Shown one piece after another: positions 27,120-50,842 of a DNA stretch of 64,000 nt. The notes below the pieces were generated by a model. It was given only the letters and a program-made list of their open reading frames with translations, ran no database searches and was not told where the DNA came from. The translations under genes were made by a program, and so were the position numbers. Position 1 is the first letter of the stretch; the number at the start of each line of letters is the position of its first letter. Source of the stretch: Actinomycetota bacterium. Its GTDB lineage: Bacteria > Actinomycetota > Rubrobacteria > Rubrobacterales > Rubrobacteraceae. The stretch lies in the NCBI GenBank assembly GCA_902810695.1, contig CADDYV010000008.1:1-64000 (forward strand), written 5' to 3'.

Positions 27120-28142
27120 GTGAGCGGGGAGAGGCTACTACTGAGAGGGAGATCTGAAATCTCACCGATAAGAGCGGTGCTGGTGTTGTTTTTACTCTTT
27201 GCTTGCTTCGCTCTAGCCAGTTGCGGGGGCGGAAATAGTTCGTCTGGAAATACCTCATCTCCAGCGGCAGGCGTCGCAGCCGGAGGAACGACGGCGGCAG
27301 GCGAGACCGTTACCGGCAGCGTTGCGTCGGCTGGACAACCTGCCACCTCGCAGGGGAGCACTTTCGTGCTCAACGAGGGCCAACCGGTTCCGGGAGACTT
27401 CAAAGCCGCTTACGAGAGGAAGGCCCCGATATCGGTTCTCTTCTACGAACCGAGCCAGGGTGCCCTCTATCCTCAGGGCCTGGATGTGGACACCATGGTA
27501 AGCAACTACATGAGCAACCTGCGCTCGAGGTACCCCCAGATCGAGTTTTTCTCCTACAACATAAATAATCCCGGCAGTGCGCAGTCTTCCAAGGAACTGA
27601 GGCCGGGGGAGTACGGTTCGCTGGCCGCGCAACTCGGGGTAGGCTACACGCCATACGTGGTAATGCTCGCCCCACAAGGCGGCGGATACACCGTCGAGAA
27701 TGTTTTCGAAGGTTACGTGCCGCCGCCCGTCTTGAGCCAGGCGCTTTTCAACCTCGCAGCCGTCAGCAAAGGCGGAAACACCAGCGACGCGGACGTAACG
27801 CTGGAGAAGATCAAACTCACCAAAACCGGCGGCGGCATCGAGTATGTGGCCATCAAGAATCAGAGCAAACAAACCATTGGCTTGCAGGGTTTCACCCTGA
27901 AGCCTCTCAATCCCCACACCGGACAGGTGGAGTCGAACGCGAAGGGGCTTTTGATCTCCGGGAAGCTCAAGGTCGGACCCGGACAAACCGTCGCCATCGG
28001 CCGTACGCCGAATGTGAAAGGTCCGAACGGCAAGAAAGTCGCAGGAACGTTCGAAGGCGGCGAGGAGATGAGTCTGTCGCCAGGAGATCAGGTCGCCCTC
28101 CTCGATTCAGGTGGCGCGGTAGCGTCTACCATAACCGTATAA
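27120..28142 (+). CDS. Lipoprotein with thioredoxin-like middle and C-terminal lamin-tail domain
   Basis: The 340-residue product has a hydrophobic signal ending in the lipobox ALASC (Cys about 35), then a Gly/Ser/Thr-rich linker. Residues about 90-215 look thioredoxin-like (APISVLFYEPSQ ... LGVGYTPYVVMLAPQGG) but have no CxxC, so a redox role is unlikely. Residues about 225-340 match the lamin-tail (LTD) beta sandwich: a strand IEYVAIKNQSKQTIGLQGF and the late strands AGTFEGG, LSPGDQVALLDSGGAV. LTD modules often sit at the C-terminus of secreted proteins. The start is GTG at 27120; no closer in-frame start gives a complete signal. Function unknown. Confidence 0.7.
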   Translation: MSGERLLLRGRSEISPIRAVLVLFLLFACFALASCGGGNSSSGNTSSPAAGVAAGGTTAAGETVTGSVASAGQPATSQGSTFVLNEGQPVPGDFKAAYERKAPISVLFYEPSQGALYPQGLDVDTMVSNYMSNLRSRYPQIEFFSYNINNPGSAQSSKELRPGEYGSLAAQLGVGYTPYVVMLAPQGGGYTVENVFEGYVPPPVLSQALFNLAAVSKGGNTSDADVTLEKIKLTKTGGGIEYVAIKNQSKQTIGLQGFTLKPLNPHTGQVESNAKGLLISGKLKVGPGQTVAIGRTPNVKGPNGKKVAGTFEGGEEMSLSPGDQVALLDSGGAVASTITV

Positions 28143-29378: not shown

Positions 29379-30848
29379 ATGGCAGATCACTACAAACCAC
29401 AGGTCATAGAGCATCTGGTGCGGCCCCGCAATGTGGGGGAGATAGAAGTCCCCGATGGTGCGGGGGAGTCGGGCGATGCCGCGTGCGGAGATATCGCCCG
29501 CTTCACGGTGAGCGTCAAAGACAACACGCTCGAAAAGGTGCGCTACAAGGTCTACGGCTGCGCGGCGTGTATCGCCGCGGGCTCGGCGCTCGCGGAGCTG
29601 GTGGACGGCAGGCACCTGCTCGAAGCGGCCCGGGTGTCGAAGGCGGATCTCGAAGATGCTCTCGGCGGGCCGCTGCCGGAGGGCAAAGAGCACGCCTTTA
29701 CCCTGGTTCTCGACGCGCTGCACAAGGCTTTCGAAGATTACCTGAACTGGCGGGCCGGGAATCTCCTCGTCGAGGGATATAACGGGTGTGGCCCCGGCGA
29801 GAGCAAGACCGTCGTTGCGGCGATGAGCGGCGGCGTTGATTCGGCGGTAACGGCGCTCCTTCTGAAAGAGTCCGGCTACGACGTTGCAACCGTTACCTTC
29901 CGGCTGCACGACGGGGAGCCGGGTAGCCGCTCTTGCTGCTCGCCCGATACGGTGCTCTTCGCCCGCGACACGGCGCACCGGATGGGTTTGCCGCACTTCA
30001 CGCTCAACCTCAAGAAGCTGTTCGACCGGCGCGTGATGAGCGATTTCGTCGGCTCCTACGCCAGCGGGAGCACGCCCAACCCTTGCGTGGCCTGCAACGC
30101 CCACGTCAAGTTCCACGCGGCGGCCTTCCTCGCCGACGAACTTGGCTATTACCACGTGGCCACCGGCCACTACGCCCGCGTCGTCCAAACTCCCGACGGA
30201 CCGGCGATGGTCCGCCCGGTGGACGCGAGGAAAGACCAGACCTACGTCCTCTGGCCCGTGCCAAAAAAGCTTCTCGCCCGCACGGTGTTTCCTCTGGGGG
30301 AGTACGAGAAGACCGAGGTGCGCAGGATCGCCGAAGAGCGAAACCTCGCGGTGGCTTACACTCCCGAGAGCCAGGACATCTGCTTTATCCCGGACGGCAA
30401 CTACCGCCGCTTCGTCCGCAAGAAGGTCAAGACCGAGCCCGGCAAGGTCGTGGATCGCGAGGGACGGGTGCTCGGAGAGCACCGGGGGGTGGTGGACTTC
30501 ACGGTCGGGCAGCGGCGTGGCCTCGGGGTCTCGGCTCCGCACCCGCTCTACGTAACCGAGGTGCGCCCCAGAGCGAAGCAGGTCGTCGTCGGGCGCAAGA
30601 GAGACCTGGAGATATCCGATATACGGGTTAAGAACATGAACTGGTACATGCGGCCCGAGGCGGCTTCCTCGGTGCAGATCCGCTACAACAGCACTCCGGT
30701 GCCTTGCGAGGTCGAACGGGACGGTGGCAACGAGTGGGTGGTGCGGTTCGAGAAGCCGGTTCTGGGCGTGGCGCCCGGACAGTCGGCGGTGTTCTACGAC
30801 GGTGATAAGGTGGTTGGCGGCGGCGTGGTGGCGCGCCGCGGTTCGTAG
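29379..30848 (+). CDS. mnmA: IscU-like domain fused to tRNA 2-thiouridylase MnmA
   Basis: The 489-residue protein joins an IscU/NifU-N-like domain (1-125) to complete MnmA (143-489). MnmA thiolates U34 of Lys, Glu and Gln tRNAs: the PP-loop SGGVDS (150-155) activates the uridine with ATP, Cys239 in PNPCVACN is the expected nucleophile and Cys335 in SQDICFIPDG the second cysteine. The IscU part keeps Cys36, Asp38, Cys61 and His105 (numbering nearly equals E. coli), but the third ligand Cys106 is Ala. It therefore probably relays sulfur rather than building clusters. It lies 14 bp after a cysteine desulfurase gene. Confidence 0.92.
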   Translation: MADHYKPQVIEHLVRPRNVGEIEVPDGAGESGDAACGDIARFTVSVKDNTLEKVRYKVYGCAACIAAGSALAELVDGRHLLEAARVSKADLEDALGGPLPEGKEHAFTLVLDALHKAFEDYLNWRAGNLLVEGYNGCGPGESKTVVAAMSGGVDSAVTALLLKESGYDVATVTFRLHDGEPGSRSCCSPDTVLFARDTAHRMGLPHFTLNLKKLFDRRVMSDFVGSYASGSTPNPCVACNAHVKFHAAAFLADELGYYHVATGHYARVVQTPDGPAMVRPVDARKDQTYVLWPVPKKLLARTVFPLGEYEKTEVRRIAEERNLAVAYTPESQDICFIPDGNYRRFVRKKVKTEPGKVVDREGRVLGEHRGVVDFTVGQRRGLGVSAPHPLYVTEVRPRAKQVVVGRKRDLEISDIRVKNMNWYMRPEAASSVQIRYNSTPVPCEVERDGGNEWVVRFEKPVLGVAPGQSAVFYDGDKVVGGGVVARRGS

Positions 30849-31623: not shown

Positions 31624-31911
31624 TTGTCTGGTAAGGAATCCGCCGAGTACACGTACCTGAGAGTACCTCCAACGCCGCAGCTTAGATCCTGCATCGGGCT
31701 GGTTCTGGCGGGGATGGCGGCGCGCGCGAAGGTTGGGGTTGGCAACCTCGATGAGGCTGCAGAGCTTCTGGAGAGCTATCATTCCAGCGACAGGCCTACC
31801 CGGTACCGCTTCCATCTGGGCGAGGAGAGTGTGATCGCCGAGGTCGAGGAGGCGGAGTCTGCGGGTAACGGAGAGCCTCGCTGGCGAACTGTGGTAGAAC
31901 TGGTTTCGTGA
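31624..31911 (+). CDS. Degenerate RsbW-like anti-sigma protein
   Basis: The 95-residue protein begins like the RsbW/SpoIIAB family: YTYLRVPPTPQLRSCIGLVL followed by AGMAARAKVGVGNLDEAAEL matches the first strand and helix of those anti-sigma kinases. After that the ATP-binding N box (E-A-x-x-N) is missing, and the chain ends in two strands (YRFHLGEESVIAEVEE and RWRTVVELV). It probably cannot bind ATP or phosphorylate a partner, but could still bind a sigma factor. Start TTG at 31624 follows a strong GGAGG. Its TGA overlaps the sigma factor GTG start, the classical arrangement of an anti-sigma and its sigma. Confidence 0.55.
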   Translation: MSGKESAEYTYLRVPPTPQLRSCIGLVLAGMAARAKVGVGNLDEAAELLESYHSSDRPTRYRFHLGEESVIAEVEEAESAGNGEPRWRTVVELVS

Positions 31912-32681
31912 GCGAGCGCAACCACAAGCCTGATAAGGCTCGTACGCGGCGGCTGCTGGTGCGCTACCACAAAGAAGGCGATGAACGTGCCCGCGAGCAG
32001 GTGATACAGGAGCAGCTTCCCCTGGTGGAGTTCCTGGCCCGCAAGTTCGCCGGGCGCGGCGAGCCGGTGGATGATCTGGTGCAGGTCGGTTCCGTGGGGC
32101 TCGTCAAGGCGGTTGATCGTTTCGACGTGGACCGCAACATAGAGTTCTCGACCTACGCCACGCCGAACATCCTCGGAGAGATCAAACGCTACTTCAGGGA
32201 TAAAGGATGGGCGATGCGCGTGCCCCGCGGTTTGCAGGAGCTCAGGCAGTCCGCCAAAGAAGCCATCCGCGAGGAGACGGTAAGGACCGGCCGCTCTCCG
32301 ACGATGCAGGAGCTGGCCGAGAACCTTGACGCAGACGTTGAGAGCGTGGCGGAGGCGCTTACCCTGGGACGCGCGTACAACACCACCAGCCTCGACGCCC
32401 CTGTCAGCCAGGATGAGTCTGAGGGCGACACCATCATGGATCTGCAGGCCGACGAAAACTCTCCGATAGAAGGTCTCGAAGACAGGATACTGCTGCAGTC
32501 GGCGATGGGCGGCCTGGACGACCAGCAGCAGAGGATCCTCAAGCTTCGCTTCAATGAGGGCAAGACCCAGACCGAGATCGCCAACGACATCGGGGTGAGC
32601 CAGATGCACGTCTCCCGGCTTTTGCGCCGGGCGATAGACAACTTGCGGCACGAGCTCGGCGAACTGGAAAAGAAAAGCTAG
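31908..32681 (+). CDS. SigB/SigF/SigG-type RNA polymerase sigma factor
   Basis: The 257-residue protein has region 2 (QLPLVEFLARKFAGRGEPVD, DDLVQVGSVGLVKAVDRFD, FSTYATPNILGEIKRYFRDK), region 3 (RSPTMQELAENLD) and region 4 with the HTH EIANDIGVSQMHVSRLL. There is no region 1.1. This is the group 3 family that controls general stress or sporulation. Its GTG start overlaps the RsbW-like gene, which points to partner control. The alaS promoter lies just behind it. Confidence 0.9.
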   Translation: MSERNHKPDKARTRRLLVRYHKEGDERAREQVIQEQLPLVEFLARKFAGRGEPVDDLVQVGSVGLVKAVDRFDVDRNIEFSTYATPNILGEIKRYFRDKGWAMRVPRGLQELRQSAKEAIREETVRTGRSPTMQELAENLDADVESVAEALTLGRAYNTTSLDAPVSQDESEGDTIMDLQADENSPIEGLEDRILLQSAMGGLDDQQQRILKLRFNEGKTQTEIANDIGVSQMHVSRLLRRAIDNLRHELGELEKKS

Positions 32682-36893: not shown

Positions 36894-36921
36894 TAAAGTT
36901 TCAGGCCATTTTTGACGATAA
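36894..36921 (+). promoter_or_regulatory. FliA/WhiG-type promoter upstream of aroE-pilB
   Basis: TAAAGTTT (36894-36901), 12 nt, GACGATAA (36914-36921) fits the sigma-28 pattern TAAA-N14 to N16-GCCGATAA. The same arrangement occurs before the 51-kb sigma factor gene and, with GCCGAATA, before pilT. A TTGACG (36912) and TACCGT (36934) overlapping it could be a second, weaker site. Confidence 0.6.
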
Positions 36922-36973
36922 CCTGTAAGACAGTACCGTGGAACGGCGGGTGCTTCCCGGATTTTTTGGAGAT

Positions 36974-37846
36974 ATGGGCTTGCGACTTACGGGAAAAACA
37001 GGGCTTCTAGGTGTGATCGGGCATCCCATAGCCCACAGCCTGAGTCCCGCGATGCACAACGCGGCCTTTGCCGCCTCTGGTCAGGACTACGTCTACGTGC
37101 CGATGGACGTGTTGCCCGAGAGGTTGCCAGAGGCGGTGCGGGGAATGATGGCTCTGGGTTTCAGAGGATTCAACGTAACCATCCCGCACAAAGAAGATAT
37201 CCTGCCGCTGCTTGATGAGCTGGACGATTCGGCCCGCATTCCCGGCGCCGTCAATACGGTGGTAATAGAGGAAGACAGGCTGCGGGGGCTCAACACCGAT
37301 GGGAGCGGGTTTCTGGAAGCCTACTACGAAGCGGGCGGCGAACTCAGAGGCAGGCGCGTCCTGATCCTGGGCGCGGGCGGGGCCGCAGCCGCGATCTCTG
37401 CCGCTGTTCTGGAACAAGGTGTTTGTGAATTGCTGCTGATCAACCGCAGCGCCGGGCGCGCCAGGCGGCTCTACGAGAAGCTTGTGAGGGCGTATCCGGA
37501 AGCGAACGTAACCTTGCGCCCTCTCGCAGATAGGGCAGACGCGGCCAAACGGGCGGAGATCCTGATAAACGCGACTTCTCTGGGGATGGAGGATGACTCT
37601 CTGGCGTTTCCCGCAGAAGCTATTAGTGCGGAGAAAACCCTCTGCGATGTGGTTTACCGTGCCGGTGGCGAGACTCCTCTCGTAAAACTGGCCTGGGAGC
37701 AGGGGGCGCGGGTGGTCTCCGGCGAGCGGATGCTGCTGTATCAGGGGGTTGAGTCGCAGCGGGTGTGGACCGGCAGGGAGCCGGATATAAGGGCGATGAG
37801 CAGCGTGCTGTTCGGAGAAATCGAGGTTGGCGAGGGACAGGTATGA
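36974..37846 (+). CDS. aroE: Shikimate dehydrogenase
   Basis: AroE reduces 3-dehydroshikimate to shikimate with NADPH. Seen are HSLSPAMHNAAF (shikimate binding), NVTIPHKEDILP with the catalytic Lys, NTDGSGF with the Asp partner, the nucleotide fold LILGAGGAAAAISAAV, and LINRSAGRA, where Asn-Arg-Ser fits NADPH. Start is uncertain: ATG 36974 was chosen because the promoter-like site upstream leaves GTG 36938 at or before the transcript start, although ATG has a short GGAG spacing. The stop overlaps the ATG of pilB (ATGA), linking aromatic synthesis to pilus motors in one transcript. Confidence 0.92.
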   Translation: MGLRLTGKTGLLGVIGHPIAHSLSPAMHNAAFAASGQDYVYVPMDVLPERLPEAVRGMMALGFRGFNVTIPHKEDILPLLDELDDSARIPGAVNTVVIEEDRLRGLNTDGSGFLEAYYEAGGELRGRRVLILGAGGAAAAISAAVLEQGVCELLLINRSAGRARRLYEKLVRAYPEANVTLRPLADRADAAKRAEILINATSLGMEDDSLAFPAEAISAEKTLCDVVYRAGGETPLVKLAWEQGARVVSGERMLLYQGVESQRVWTGREPDIRAMSSVLFGEIEVGEGQV

Positions 37847-40005
37847 AAGTATTGATAGCCGAAGACGATTCCATATCGCGCAGGATTCTGGCCAGGACCG
37901 TCGAGAAGTTCGGCTACGAATGTCTGGCTGCGGAAGACGGGTTGGAGGCGTGGAGGATCTTTCAGAACACCCCTGAGATAGACGCCGTTGTGAGCGACTG
38001 GATGATGCCTGGTATGGACGGGCTCGAACTCTGCCGCAAAATCCGGGGTACTGATCACTCTAACAACACCTTCTTCATTTTTCTGACGGCACTCAGGGGT
38101 GAGGAGCATCTGATAGAAGGCATGAAGGCGGGTGCAGATGAGTACCTTGTCAAGCCTCTCGATATCGAGCAGCTCAAGACAAAGCTGGCCGCCGCCTCGC
38201 GCCTTACATCCCTGCGGCAGCAACTCGACGGCACCGGCAAGCAATCGGGAGATGGGGCTTCTTCCGCGGAACCTAGTGTGATCCCCGGAGCCCTCGTTCC
38301 TACCAGAAAAAAGGTCGGTAGGGGAGGCAAGATCTGGGACATCCTCACCTCCCAGGGTAAGGTGAGTGAAGAGCAGCTACAGCAGGCGGTGGAGGCCCAG
38401 AAGAACGACCCCAGAGACCTGGGCAGGATCCTGGTGTCGCTCGGATTCATCTCGGAGGCGGATCTCGCGCAAGCCCAGGCCCAGCGGCTGGGCCTGGAGT
38501 ACATAGACCTCAGCGAGAACGACGTGGATCGGGGAGCGGCGACCCTCATCGAGCAGAAAATTCTGCGCAAGCACAACGTGATCCCCTTGAGGGTAGAGGA
38601 CAGGCGGCTGGTGGTTGCGATGAGCGACCCGACGAACCTCTACGCCCTCGAGGATCTGAAGATAATCTCTGGTTACCAGATAGTCCCGATGGTCGCTACC
38701 GAAACCCAGATACGCCAAGTCCAGAACAAAGTCTTCGCCATGGGCGAGGAGGTTAGCGAGATCCTCGAAGGGGCGGCAGGCGACTCTTTTATCGAGTCGG
38801 CAGACGAGCTGGAGCTTGGCGTAGATGCGGGCGCCGAGGAAGCGCCTGTGATCCGGCTCGTCAGCTCTATTTTGCAGCAGGCTGTAGGTGACGGGGCTTC
38901 GGATATCCATATAGAGCCCGGATCCAGAGGCCTTTCGGTGCGCTTCAGGGTTGATGGGGTCCTGAGAGAGATAATGAGCATCCCCCCGAAGCTGCAGAAC
39001 GGCGTGATAGCACGCCTCAAAATCCTCTCTAACCTCAATATCGCGGAGAAGAGGGTGCCGCAGGACGGGCGTTTCTCGGTAAGGCTCGGCGGGCAGAAGG
39101 TTGACCTCAGGGCGGCTTCTCTGCCAACGGTCTACGGGGAGAAAATAGTCCTGAGGTTGCTCGATAACACGAGCGTAGGGGTGGACCTGACCAAGCTCGG
39201 CTTCCCGCCGAAGATCTTCGAGAGATACGAGGAAATATTCCGCAGACCCTACGGGGCCATCCTGGTTACAGGTCCTACAGGGAGTGGCAAGTCAACGACG
39301 CTCTACGCCACCCTGAACGAACTCAACTCCCCGGAGAAGAACATCATCACCGTCGAGGATCCGGTCGAGTACAGGATGGAGGGCATAAACCAGGTGCAGG
39401 TCAATCCCAAGGTTGGGCTCACCTTTGCCTCGGGCTTGAGGAGCATTCTCCGCAGCGATCCCGACATAGTTATGATCGGGGAGATCAGGGACTTCGAAAC
39501 GGCCAAGATCAGTGTAGAGGCTGCCCTGACCGGGCACATGGTACTGGCGACTCTCCACACCAACAATGCGCCCGGAGCTATGGGACGGTTGACGGACATG
39601 GGCGTGGAACCGTTCTTGACAGCCTCTGCGGTAGACTGCGTGATCGCCCAGAGGCTCGCCAGGAGACTCTGCGAGCACTGCAAGGAGCCGGTAGAGATAG
39701 AGGAGGAGATCCTGAGGAACTTGGATTTCCCTTTTGAGATGATCTCCCAGGAAGATGGTCTGCACTTTTACAAGGCAGTCGGATGCGGACGGTGTGGGGG
39801 AGCCGGTTACAGGGGACGGGTCGGCATATACGAGCTGATGGTGGTTACCGATGAGATCAGGGATCTCGTCCTGAAGAGGGCTTCAACGGCAGAGATGGGC
39901 CGTGCCGCACGCAGAGAGGGGATGATCGCCCTGCGTGAAGATGGTCTGGCTAAAGCTGCCCAAGGTGTAACGACCATAGAAGAGGTTTTGAGAACGGTCG
40001 TCTAG
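37843..40005 (+). CDS. pilB: Type IV pilus extension ATPase PilB with N-terminal response-regulator domain
   Basis: The 720-residue protein has three parts. Residues 1-125 are a complete receiver domain: Asp8-Asp9 acidic pocket, Asp52 phosphoacceptor in VVSDWMMPGMDG, Thr82 and Lys104 (LVKPL). Residues about 160-310 are an MshEN/T4SS_E-II domain (GRILVSLGFISEADLAQAQ, RLGLEYIDL, VIPLRVEDRRLVVAMSDP). Residues 340-720 are the motor: Walker A GPTGSGKS (about 477), Asp box, Walker B IVMIGEIRD (about 540), His box LATLHTNNAPGA and a tetracysteine zinc site (CEHC...CGRC). The ATG overlaps the aroE stop. The fusion suggests direct control by phosphorylation, and perhaps by c-di-GMP. Confidence 0.93.
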   Translation: MKVLIAEDDSISRRILARTVEKFGYECLAAEDGLEAWRIFQNTPEIDAVVSDWMMPGMDGLELCRKIRGTDHSNNTFFIFLTALRGEEHLIEGMKAGADEYLVKPLDIEQLKTKLAAASRLTSLRQQLDGTGKQSGDGASSAEPSVIPGALVPTRKKVGRGGKIWDILTSQGKVSEEQLQQAVEAQKNDPRDLGRILVSLGFISEADLAQAQAQRLGLEYIDLSENDVDRGAATLIEQKILRKHNVIPLRVEDRRLVVAMSDPTNLYALEDLKIISGYQIVPMVATETQIRQVQNKVFAMGEEVSEILEGAAGDSFIESADELELGVDAGAEEAPVIRLVSSILQQAVGDGASDIHIEPGSRGLSVRFRVDGVLREIMSIPPKLQNGVIARLKILSNLNIAEKRVPQDGRFSVRLGGQKVDLRAASLPTVYGEKIVLRLLDNTSVGVDLTKLGFPPKIFERYEEIFRRPYGAILVTGPTGSGKSTTLYATLNELNSPEKNIITVEDPVEYRMEGINQVQVNPKVGLTFASGLRSILRSDPDIVMIGEIRDFETAKISVEAALTGHMVLATLHTNNAPGAMGRLTDMGVEPFLTASAVDCVIAQRLARRLCEHCKEPVEIEEEILRNLDFPFEMISQEDGLHFYKAVGCGRCGGAGYRGRVGIYELMVVTDEIRDLVLKRASTAEMGRAARREGMIALREDGLAKAAQGVTTIEEVLRTVV

Positions 40006-40027: not shown

Positions 40028-40055
40028 TAAAGTTTTTCGCTCCTCGTGCCGAATA
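40028..40055 (+). promoter_or_regulatory. FliA/WhiG-type promoter upstream of pilT
   Basis: TAAAGTTT (40028-40035), 12 nt, GCCGAATA (40048-40055). The spacing equals that of the sites before aroE and the sigma factor. It would produce a leader of about 33 nt before the pilT ATG, which contains AGAGGAG as ribosome site. Confidence 0.5.
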
Positions 40056-40095: not shown

Positions 40096-41199
40096 ATGAT
40101 AGAGAGCGGGCTCAACGATTACCTGTTCGACGCGATCAAACTCGGCGCGAGCGACATGCACATAACGGTGGGGGTGCCGCCGATGGTGAGGGTCAACGGC
40201 AAGGTCCAACCGCTGGATTATCCGCCGCTGACACCCAACGTGACCCGAGAGTTGATCTACGACATCCTGTCCAATGACCAGCGGCAGCGTCTGGAGAACG
40301 ACTGGGAGCTCGACTTCAGCTACAGCATACCTCGCACCGCGCGCTTCAGGGTGAACGTCTACTTCCAGCGGGGCTCGATGGGCGCGGCTTTCAGGACGAT
40401 CCCGCATGAGATCAAGAGCTTCAAGGAGCTTGGGCTACCGCCAGTTATCGAGGATATGACCGAAAAGCCACGCGGGCTGGTGCTCGTTACGGGGCCGACC
40501 GGAAGCGGCAAGTCCACCACGCTCGCCTCGATGATAGACAGGATCAACGAGACGAGATACGAGCACATAATGAGCGTCGAGGACCCGATAGAGTTCCTGC
40601 ACAAGCACAAGAAGTGCATCGTCAACCAGCGCGAAGTCAACCAGGATACCAGGAGCTTCGGTGAGGCGCTGCGGCATGTGTTGAGGCAAGACCCGGATGT
40701 GATCCTGGTCGGCGAGATGCGCGATCTGGAGACCATCTCTATAGCCCTGACCGCCGCTGAGACGGGCCACCTGGTTTTCGCCACGCTCCACACCCAGGAC
40801 GCTCCGCAGACGATAGACCGCATCATAGACGTCTTCCCCTCTCATCAGCAGGCCCAGATCCGGACGCAGCTCGCCAACGCCATGCAGGGCATCGTCACCC
40901 AGACCCTGATCCCCAGGCGCGACGGCCAGGGGCGTATCGTGGCGTGCGAGGTGCTCGTTCCAACTCCCGGCGTCAGAAACCTCATCCGCGAGGGTAAGAA
41001 CCACCAGATCTACTCCGCCATGCAGACCGGGGGCAAATTCGGGATGCAGACGATGGACGCGGCGCTTGCCGACCTCGTAAGGCGCGGTTTCATCTCGCGT
41101 GAGGAAGCCGAGAAACGCTCGAACAACCCCGAGGAGCTCAGGCGGCTCGCTGGCGGGGGAATGATCGGGGCCGGCGGGTTTGCGGCGGCTAGGAGGTAG
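40096..41199 (+). CDS. pilT: Type IV pilus retraction ATPase PilT
   Basis: PilT depolymerises the pilus and powers twitching. The 367-residue protein has the N-terminal PAS-like region (LGASDMHITVGVPPMVRVNG), Walker A GPTGSGKST, the Asp box, Walker B VILVGEMRD, the His box FATLHTQDAP and the PilT C-terminal signature GVRNLIREGKNHQIYSAMQT (AIRNLIRE in Proteobacteria). It is followed after 5 bp by pilC. Length and motifs are normal. Confidence 0.95.
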   Translation: MIESGLNDYLFDAIKLGASDMHITVGVPPMVRVNGKVQPLDYPPLTPNVTRELIYDILSNDQRQRLENDWELDFSYSIPRTARFRVNVYFQRGSMGAAFRTIPHEIKSFKELGLPPVIEDMTEKPRGLVLVTGPTGSGKSTTLASMIDRINETRYEHIMSVEDPIEFLHKHKKCIVNQREVNQDTRSFGEALRHVLRQDPDVILVGEMRDLETISIALTAAETGHLVFATLHTQDAPQTIDRIIDVFPSHQQAQIRTQLANAMQGIVTQTLIPRRDGQGRIVACEVLVPTPGVRNLIREGKNHQIYSAMQTGGKFGMQTMDAALADLVRRGFISREEAEKRSNNPEELRRLAGGGMIGAGGFAAARR

Positions 41200-41204
41200 C
41201 TCTC

Positions 41205-42416
41205 ATGGCCACTTTTACTTACAAAGTACGAAACAGGCAGGGCGATATCCTGCAAGATCAGATAGAAGGCGACAACACGATGGCGGTCGTCTCGGAACTC
41301 AGAAGGCAGGGGCTCCTCGTCATAGACATCAAGGAGCAGGGCGTCGGCCAGAAGGATATTTTGGAGCCATTCAAGTCCGTGAAGATGGCCGATCTGGTCG
41401 TCTTCACCCGGCAGTTCGCCACCATGATCAACGCCGGAATGCCGATAGTCCGGGCCCTGTACGTCCTGGGCGAGCAGACCACCAACAAAAAACTCCAGGA
41501 GACCATCGTCCAGATTCGCAAGGATGTCGAGGCTGGGCTCGCGCTCTCGGAGGCGCTCGCCAAGCACCCCAAGGTCTTCGGCCGCCTCTACGTTGAGATG
41601 GTCAAGGCTGGTGAGATCGGGGGCATCCTCGATGACATCCTGCTCAGGGTCGCCACGCAGCTTGAGAAGGACCATGATCTGCGGCGCAAGGTCAAGAGCG
41701 CGATGACCTACCCGGTAGTGGTTCTGGTGCTGGCGGTGCTTGCTGCCTCGTTCATGCTCATCTTTATCGTCCCGATCTTCGCCAAGATGTTCAAGAATCT
41801 CGGCGGGACCCTGCCGCTTCCTACCCGCATCGCGATGGGAATATCCAGCATCCTGACCAGCCCGTTCGGGGTACTCGTCTACGTGGCGATGGGGGCCGCG
41901 ATCTACGGTTTTCTCCGGTGGAAGAAGACCGAGCAGGGACGCAAAATCTGGGGACGGGTGGTGCTCAAGATACCGGCCAAGATCGGCGATGTCGTGCAAA
42001 AGGTCGCCCTCGCCCGCTTCGCCCGGACCCTGGGGACGCTCAGCGCTGCGGGCGTGCCGATCCTCCAGGCGCTGGAGATCACCGCCACCTCCTCGGGAAA
42101 CTGGGTGATAGAGCGGGCGCTCCTTCAGAGCAGAGACTCGATTCGTCAGGGAATCCCGATATACAAGCCGCTCGAAGCAGAGCCGGTCTTTCCACCGATG
42201 GTTACACGCATGATCGCCGTCGGTGAAGAAACGGGTGATGTGGACGGGATGCTCACCAAGATAGCCGAGTTCTATGAGTCTGAGGTGGACGCGGCGGTAA
42301 AAGCGCTGACCTCGATCATAGAACCCTTGATGATCGTGGTTGTGGGCGGCATCGTGGGGGGCATCATCATCTCCATGTACCTGCCCATGTTCCAGATCTA
42401 CAACCTGATCAAGTAG
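41205..42416 (+). CDS. pilC: Type IV pilus inner-membrane platform protein PilC
   Basis: PilC is the membrane platform on which PilB and PilT act. The 403-residue protein has the short N-terminal domain (FTYKVRNRQGDILQDQIEGD), two T2SSF repeats (about 70-195 and 275-400) with FTRQFATMINAGMPIVRAL and ARFARTLGTLSAAGVPILQAL, and three membrane helices. The end GGIVGGIIISMYLPMFQI is typical. In many genomes prepilin and pilM-N-O genes follow; here they do not. Confidence 0.95.
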   Translation: MATFTYKVRNRQGDILQDQIEGDNTMAVVSELRRQGLLVIDIKEQGVGQKDILEPFKSVKMADLVVFTRQFATMINAGMPIVRALYVLGEQTTNKKLQETIVQIRKDVEAGLALSEALAKHPKVFGRLYVEMVKAGEIGGILDDILLRVATQLEKDHDLRRKVKSAMTYPVVVLVLAVLAASFMLIFIVPIFAKMFKNLGGTLPLPTRIAMGISSILTSPFGVLVYVAMGAAIYGFLRWKKTEQGRKIWGRVVLKIPAKIGDVVQKVALARFARTLGTLSAAGVPILQALEITATSSGNWVIERALLQSRDSIRQGIPIYKPLEAEPVFPPMVTRMIAVGEETGDVDGMLTKIAEFYESEVDAAVKALTSIIEPLMIVVVGGIVGGIIISMYLPMFQIYNLIK

Positions 42417-42648: not shown

Positions 42649-43281
42649 GTGGCGGCGATAGCGAAAGTTATAGAAAGACCACAAGAGAGGCCGTTGGGGT
42701 TGATCTGGGTAGATTCACCGTATCCGATGTTGTCTCTTGGCTTGGAGAAGGCGCTGGCCGGTGAGGCTTACATTTACTCTGGAAGGGGTGTGCCGAAAGA
42801 GAGGCCTTCTCTGATCATCCTTTGCCAGGACGATGGAGACATCGCGTCGAGATTGCACCGTTTGCAAACTGCGGCGCCAGACACTCCTGCTCTGGTCTTC
42901 GGCTACAATGTGAGCGCCCAGGCCGTGCGGGAGGCGCTACGGGCCGGGGCCCGCGGATTTATCCACGCCCGCATGAAGCCTGAGCAGATCGCCAGGTCAA
43001 TATCACTGGTGTGTGAGAAGGGTGAGATCGTGGTTCCGAGGGAAGTCTTGACGGACCTGGTAGCCGGAGAGTCGAGAAAGACTGAGCTTCTTGATCTCCT
43101 CACCAACCGCCAGCGGGAGATACTCGAACTGGTCGAGCAGGGACTTACCAATGCCCAAATAGCCAAGCAGCTCTACCTCGCCGAGTTCACCATCAAGCAA
43201 CACCTGCGCCACGCATACAAGACCCTGGGCGTTCGCAACAGAACCGAGGCCGCCCGTCTTATCCGGAACAGTAACCACTGA
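42649..43281 (+). CDS. LuxR/NarL-type regulator with atypical receiver domain
   Basis: The 210-residue protein ends in a clear GerE HTH domain (about 145-208: LTNRQREILELVEQGLTNAQ, IAKQLYLAEFTIKQHLRHAY). Residues 15-130 keep the receiver fold of NarL-type regulators (GLEKAL, ALRAGARGFIHARMKPEQI), but the acidic pocket reads WVDSPYP, and the phosphoacceptor strand IILCQDDGD has Cys where Asp is expected. It may thus work without phosphorylation. It lies alone after pilC, so control of pilus or surface genes is an inference. Start GTG 42649 follows AGGAGG. Confidence 0.8.
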   Translation: MAAIAKVIERPQERPLGLIWVDSPYPMLSLGLEKALAGEAYIYSGRGVPKERPSLIILCQDDGDIASRLHRLQTAAPDTPALVFGYNVSAQAVREALRAGARGFIHARMKPEQIARSISLVCEKGEIVVPREVLTDLVAGESRKTELLDLLTNRQREILELVEQGLTNAQIAKQLYLAEFTIKQHLRHAYKTLGVRNRTEAARLIRNSNH

Positions 43282-50814: not shown

Positions 50815-50842
50815 TAAAGTTCCTTTGCTTACCTGACGATAA
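50815..50842 (+). promoter_or_regulatory. FliA/WhiG-type promoter upstream of the second sigma factor
   Basis: TAAAGTTC (50815-50822), 12 nt, GACGATAA (50835-50842). The -10 is identical to that before aroE-pilB, at the same distance. Transcription would start near 50849, before the leader ORF and the sigma gene, suggesting autoregulation. Confidence 0.6.

Follow-up and report, generated by a model that had tools for sequence, protein, structure and literature searches.

A PilB-type pilus motor with an N-terminal receiver domain and a degenerate MshEN domain in Rubrobacteraceae

The pilus locus and the fused motor

The window analysed here, a stretch of 64,000 nucleotides of a Rubrobacteraceae genome (G000; contig CADDYV010000008.1, positions 1 to 64,000), carries on its forward strand aroE (shikimate dehydrogenase, 36938..37846), a pilB fusion gene (37843-40005), pilT (retraction ATPase, 40096..41199; TIGR01420 508 bits, cut-off 319) and pilC (platform protein, 41205..42416). 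The pilC product matches T2SSF (1.3e-66) and is best matched in NCBIfam by PilC models, yet below their own cut-offs. Most of the relatives checked have the gene order alaS-ruvX-mltG-aroE-pilB-pilT-pilC, whether or not their PilB includes a receiver; the receiver was thus gained inside an orthologous core gene. Directly after pilC, a gene at 42649-43281 encodes a NarL-like regulator that has a LuxR DNA-binding domain but gave no Response_reg match; it may regulate the pilus locus as a pseudo-receiver protein.

The fusion gene encodes 720 amino acids followed by a stop, with no internal stop across the 720 codons and no stop or frameshift between its receiver and motor parts. As originally predicted, a receiver, an MshEN domain and a full PilB motor lie in one ORF, and Pfam matches all three: Response_reg at residues 3-115 (E 2.1e-25), MshEN at residues 216-302 (E 3e-21) and T2SSE at residues 331-717 (E 5.8e-140). 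Pfam, the translation and an AlphaFold model together delimit the receiver to residues 1-131 (37843..38235), including an extended last helix of residues 108-131. It is followed by a flexible linker of residues 132-161 (38236..38325), recognised by linker comparison and a pLDDT below 50, by the MshEN domain of residues about 162-300 (38326..38742), which matches 5htl, 6ejf and 6f8l, and by the PilB/GspE-type ATPase motor of residues 331-717 (38833..39993), also supported by structure matches. The AlphaFold model (mean pLDDT 89, mostly 88-98 over residues 1-120, pTM 0.63) was relied on solely for the folds of the domains and the disorder of the linker: the alignment behind it placed the MshEN N-subdomain wrongly in most receiver-less rows, and its inter-domain geometry is unusable. 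Among proteins of known structure, the motor is homologous to Thermus PilF and Geobacter PilB, and comparison of the model with their crystal structures gave TMt values of 0.94-0.95.

The start codon of pilB, at 37843, shares bases with the stop codon of aroE (ATGA), and GAGGGA, which resembles a ribosome-binding site, lies a short way upstream, so the receiver is likely the true N-terminus of PilB. The same fusion is open in seven other genomes of the family, which makes a misassembly or frameshift very unlikely. The best named model for the protein is TIGR02538 (PilB), whose score of 652.2 bits falls below its cut-off of 675.65, and the GspE model likewise stays below cut-off. The PilB assignment is therefore based on domains, a T2SSE motor with an N-terminal MshEN/GSPII domain, and on gene context, with pilT and pilC adjoining. 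On these grounds the protein is classed as a PilB-type extension motor with a predicted pilus-extending role. It contains no GGDEF output domain detectable by Pfam and has only its receiver in common with PleD-type cyclases.

With type IVa PilB (TIGR02538; Geobacter PilB 5tsg/6olj), the window protein shares the MshEN and T2SSE domains, the Walker motifs, the tetracysteine region and the adjoining pilT and pilC, to which it adds the N-terminal receiver and linker. The closest solved motor structures are those of Thermus thermophilus PilF, a PilB with a triple GSPII/MshEN array, and close relatives of the window motor likewise carry two or three MshEN domains. PilF lacks a receiver and binds c-di-GMP through two of its MshEN domains (PMC11731258); the window protein has a single, degenerate one. 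Three T2SSE matches were found in the genome, which is 98% complete: the fusion gene, the adjoining pilT and a gene on contig 31 whose product lacks an MshEN domain. The whole genome contains a single MshEN domain. The fusion protein is the sole PilB of the genome; it is the principal pilus motor and not a redundant paralogue.

Residues, ancestry and distribution of the receiver

The receiver has the Response_reg fold with the acidic pair, the phospho-accepting Asp, the Thr/Ser and the Lys, and every residue named in the original prediction (D8, D9, D52, T82, K104) is present in the translation. Judged by these residues, it is complete and competent for phosphorylation. Of the fused Rubrobacteraceae receivers examined, all but that of G011 retain the five phospho-site residues, and kinase control of pilus extension would be the natural inference from this conservation. 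In the G011 receiver (L014:1474-3633), the acidic pair is replaced (D8G, D9N) and the Asp, Thr and Lys remain; by sequence this is a pseudo-receiver, sister of an intact one.

The nearest relatives of the fused receivers are stand-alone REC-GGDEF proteins and REC-GAF-PAS-kinases of Rubrobacteraceae, including two REC-GGDEF genes of the same genome. The receiver tree places them together in a supported clade (98/91), at 55-65% identity between fused receivers and those of REC-GGDEF and REC-kinase proteins, and the first helices of fused and cyclase receivers are near-identical. Homology extends into the signalling helix, whose start, xASRxTSLxxxL, is common to the fused proteins and the REC-GGDEF relatives: the window protein has ASRLTSLRQQL, G006 has DAFRAKSLHEHL and the cyclases have ASRVTSLHRQL, so that RLTSLRQQL, just before the linker, matches the beginning of the cyclase helix. 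Past this point, the fused proteins continue with a linker of some 30 residues, probably disordered, whose sequence varies between species. The receiver thus appears by descent to belong to the REC-GGDEF/REC-histidine-kinase group of the family. The PleD-type REC-GGDEF cyclases on contigs 13 and 33 of the genome are members of the same receiver clade; their output is c-di-GMP synthesis, and that of the window protein is predicted to be pilus extension. In REC-GGDEF proteins, an extended last helix of the kind seen at residues 108-131 mediates dimerisation.

No histidine kinase gene was found in the window or in the neighbouring stretches checked. On contig 13, a hybrid kinase (PAS, two REC, HPt) is encoded directly upstream of a REC-GGDEF gene, and the very similar first helices of fused and cyclase receivers make it the best lead as a candidate partner kinase. 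The same arrangement, together with the identity between the two receiver types, would also suit a receiver that is carried along almost neutrally or acts as a sink for phosphate, competing for a kinase shared with REC-GGDEF and thereby tuning c-di-GMP synthesis and not the motor, and receiver gain, loss and decay all occur in the family. We consider this quite unlikely: 6 of the 7 distinct fused receivers keep all phospho-site residues in an otherwise diverging sequence, and the neighbouring MshEN is altered in step with the receiver.

We surveyed the order by searching 40 genomes and assigning architectures by profile. The fusion whose survey had been proposed is present in eight Rubrobacteraceae genomes, six as REC-MshEN-T (the window's own genome, G011, G012, G026, G027 and G028) and two as MshEN-MshEN-REC-MshEN-T (G005 and G006), where T is the motor. 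Other PilB proteins of the family have one, two or three MshEN domains ahead of the motor. Three consecutive MshEN domains occur in L010-L013 and L015-L017 (G031, G033, G003, G029, G039, G004 and G037), a PilB layout stated to have been reported until then only for Deinococcus-Thermus (PMC11731258). Across 397 genomes of the phylum, all those with a receiver among the matches listed are Rubrobacteraceae. A fusion unique to this family was nevertheless ruled out by cases from other phyla. A Candidatus Binatia genome encodes REC-MshEN-T, receiver-motor fusions were found in at least seven of 148 sampled genomes of the Binatia-group phylum, and MshEN-T-REC is encoded on near-identical contigs of Calditrichia and Bacteroidales MAGs. 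These proteins likewise join a receiver and an extension-type motor in one ORF, but with other receiver types (L150-L152 RpfG-like, by eye) or positions. Receivers at both ends (REC-MshEN-T2SSE-REC) were seen in three genomes of the Binatia-group phylum (L139-L141 / L165, L166, L168). The earlier statement that PilB-type motors normally lack a receiver holds as a rule, although such fusions recur in several lineages; the architecture is rare but recurrent. REC had been listed among MshEN partners by Wang et al. in 2016 (PMC5013675), and a literature search yielded no functional analysis of a PilB fused to a receiver.

Within the family, a motor tree with all receiver-bearing motors as one clade, as expected from a single vertical origin, was rejected (AU p 7e-9), and the fewest receiver gain or loss changes on the motor tree are three. 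The fused receivers group together weakly (58/87), and a single origin is neither established nor rejected by the receiver tree. In the MshEN that follows the receiver of G005 and G006, the N-subdomain is nearer to those of other receiver-bearing motors and the C-subdomain nearer to their own triple-MshEN clade. These patterns would each follow from gain on several occasions, from loss, or from the transfer of a cassette made of REC and the MshEN N-terminal part.

The MshEN domain and its c-di-GMP site

The window protein has the MshEN-T2SSE layout and fold of VcMshE, which is controlled by c-di-GMP. Motif alignment located two degenerate c-di-GMP motifs on the + strand, motif I (KIWDILTSQGKVSEEQLQQAVEAQ, 38329..38400), in which G11 is replaced by W165, and motif II (DLGRILVSLGFISEADLAQAQAQR, 38416..38487), with R38->D, L58->Q and Q61->R. 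In VcMshE numbering, the full set of changes is R9K, L10I, G11W, L29V, R38D, L58Q and Q61R. A c-di-GMP-binding MshEN has two copies of (R/K/L)LGxx..G..L...L..Q, and the window protein reads KIW in motif I; the extended consensus accepts R, K or L at position 1 and still requires LG (PMC11731258). In VcMshE, substitutions of G11 (G11I/L) and of G40 abolish c-di-GMP binding and L58A weakens it about tenfold (PMC5013675), and XpsE, with comparable replacements, no longer binds c-di-GMP. The first repeat had been described as partly degenerate, and the essential glycine is indeed lost from it. The second had been said to fit well, which does not hold with Asp for R/K/L at its first position, Gln at L58 and Arg at Q61.

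With the key glycine and other contact residues replaced, direct c-di-GMP control of the window motor through its MshEN domain is unlikely from the sequence, and the tentative suggestion of such control is not supported. We thus consider it very improbable that the polypeptide has a dual input, with phosphate taken by the receiver and c-di-GMP bound by the MshEN. What speaks for it is that an MshEN is present at all, that motif II keeps LG and that motif I keeps a Lys at position 1, as allowed in Thermus GSPII-B (PMC11731258); against it are the Trp, Val, Asp, Gln and Arg at positions 11, 29, 38, 58 and 61, as well as the precedents of VcMshE and XpsE. A dual input is plausible in G005 and G006, whose MshEN domains 1 and 2, ahead of the receiver, have the Gly and Leu intact, and L151 of the Binatia-group phylum retains most of the motif.

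In 6 of the 7 distinct fused motors (the window protein, G012, G026, G027/G028, and domain 3 of both G005 and G006), the MshEN that follows the receiver has Trp at G11 and Gln or Asn at L58. The MshEN of G011 has Gly at this position and is degenerate elsewhere. Trp and the loss of L58 are also found in seven receiver-less single-MshEN motors (G001, G002, G009, G010 and G013-G015), the sister group of the G011/G012 lineage, so Trp at G11 is not strictly tied to the receiver. In 86 receiver-less motors of other groups, G11 is never Trp and is Gly in 56. The tie between the MshEN change and the receiver is a correlation built on few independent events.

Proposed inputs to pilus extension

In the reading that we favour, with a confidence slightly above even, phosphorylation through the receiver, not c-di-GMP, is the direct motor input, and the MshEN no longer has a c-di-GMP site. 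Asp52 would receive its phosphate from a histidine kinase or HPt whose gene lies elsewhere. The phosphorylated receivers, held on tethers of about 30 residues at the MshEN end of the hexamer, might then pair among themselves or against an adjacent face, which would switch hexamer assembly, ATPase rate or engagement with the pilus base. The MshEN behind the receiver, with its c-di-GMP site lost as predicted from the VcMshE mutants, would be kept as a structural docking domain, so that the motor would be regulated by phosphate instead of ligand. By analogy with PleD and PixG, phosphorylation would more likely activate than inhibit the motor. The flexible linker in the model argues against a tight mechanical coupling of receiver to motor. 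The receiver input is dispensable in places, since the acidic pair is lost in G011 and one lineage of seven motors lacks the receiver.

A phosphorylated receiver protein acting directly on the pilus motor is known from the PixG/PATAN regulators of Synechocystis, where phosphorylated PixG binds PilB1 and PilC and offers a precedent in trans (PMC12288463). PixG is a separate protein with a PATAN domain, and the receiver of the window protein is in cis and without PATAN. The fusion might accordingly be an in cis form of PixG-PilB1, with the receiver serving mainly as a tag that, under control of phosphorylation, localises the motor to a pole or recruits it to a partner and leaves the ATPase unchanged. 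The binding behaviour of PixG is consistent with such a tag, and a disordered tether of 30 residues, variable in sequence between species, suits docking better than allostery. The extended last helix, of the dimerising kind of REC-GGDEF proteins, points the other way, and we regard a tag as rather unlikely.

As to how a phosphate-regulated motor would have come about, the disagreement between motor and receiver histories suggests insertion or shuffling more than once in one family. We tentatively propose, at less than even confidence, an input swap in which the REC was inserted, the MshEN gave up c-di-GMP and its altered face became a switch surface, and which happened or was shuffled more than once. 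Switching of pilus extension is known mainly via c-di-GMP, FimX/PilZ and separate response regulators, and the way these regulators touch the motor is difficult to investigate; a built-in receiver makes a direct test of phosphorylation control possible. The receiver-bearing, receiver-less, triple-MshEN and mixed motors at one locus form a natural experiment in the change of motor input.

c-di-GMP would reach the pili indirectly. WhiG/FliA-type promoter-like sites (TAAAGTT-N13-GACGATAA or similar) precede aroE-pilB (TAAAGTTTCAGGCCATTTTTGACGATAA, 36894..36921, + strand, one mismatch) and pilT (TAAAGTTTTTCGCTCCTCGTGCCGAATA, 40028..40055, + strand, two mismatches); about 7 chance matches of such looseness are expected in 64 kb, and it is their position that argues, not their number. 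Perfect sites stand at matching positions, before aroE-pilB and pilT, in several relatives. The window's own genome has 15 strict matches, compared with 0 in a reversed control, and three of them are close to GGDEF genes. In Rubrobacter radiotolerans and R. xylanophilus, pilus genes with sigma-WhiG promoters are under a c-di-GMP-dependent RsiG switch (PMC8325347). Based on the sites before aroE-pilB and pilT, c-di-GMP probably acts on pilus transcription. There would then probably be a division in which c-di-GMP sets the amount of motor and phosphorylation its action. The genome encodes 15 GGDEF domains, and a profile search of the whole genome gave no match to PilZ. With these counts and one degenerate MshEN, its c-di-GMP receptors are mostly unaccounted for. 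The sigma factor encoded at 31908-32681 was considered as a WhiG candidate and rejected, being of the SigB/F/G type.

Three further features of the window were recorded. A WhiG/FliA-type promoter-like site at 50815-50842 precedes a gene for a SigB/F/G-like sigma factor. An ORF at 27120-28142 has a weak match to the lamin-tail domain, below cut-off. Finally, one ORF at 29379-30848 combines a NifU/IscU N-terminal scaffold domain (residues 5-123) with the tRNA 2-thiouridylase MnmA (residues 144-484), a fusion that would couple sulfur handling with tRNA thiolation.
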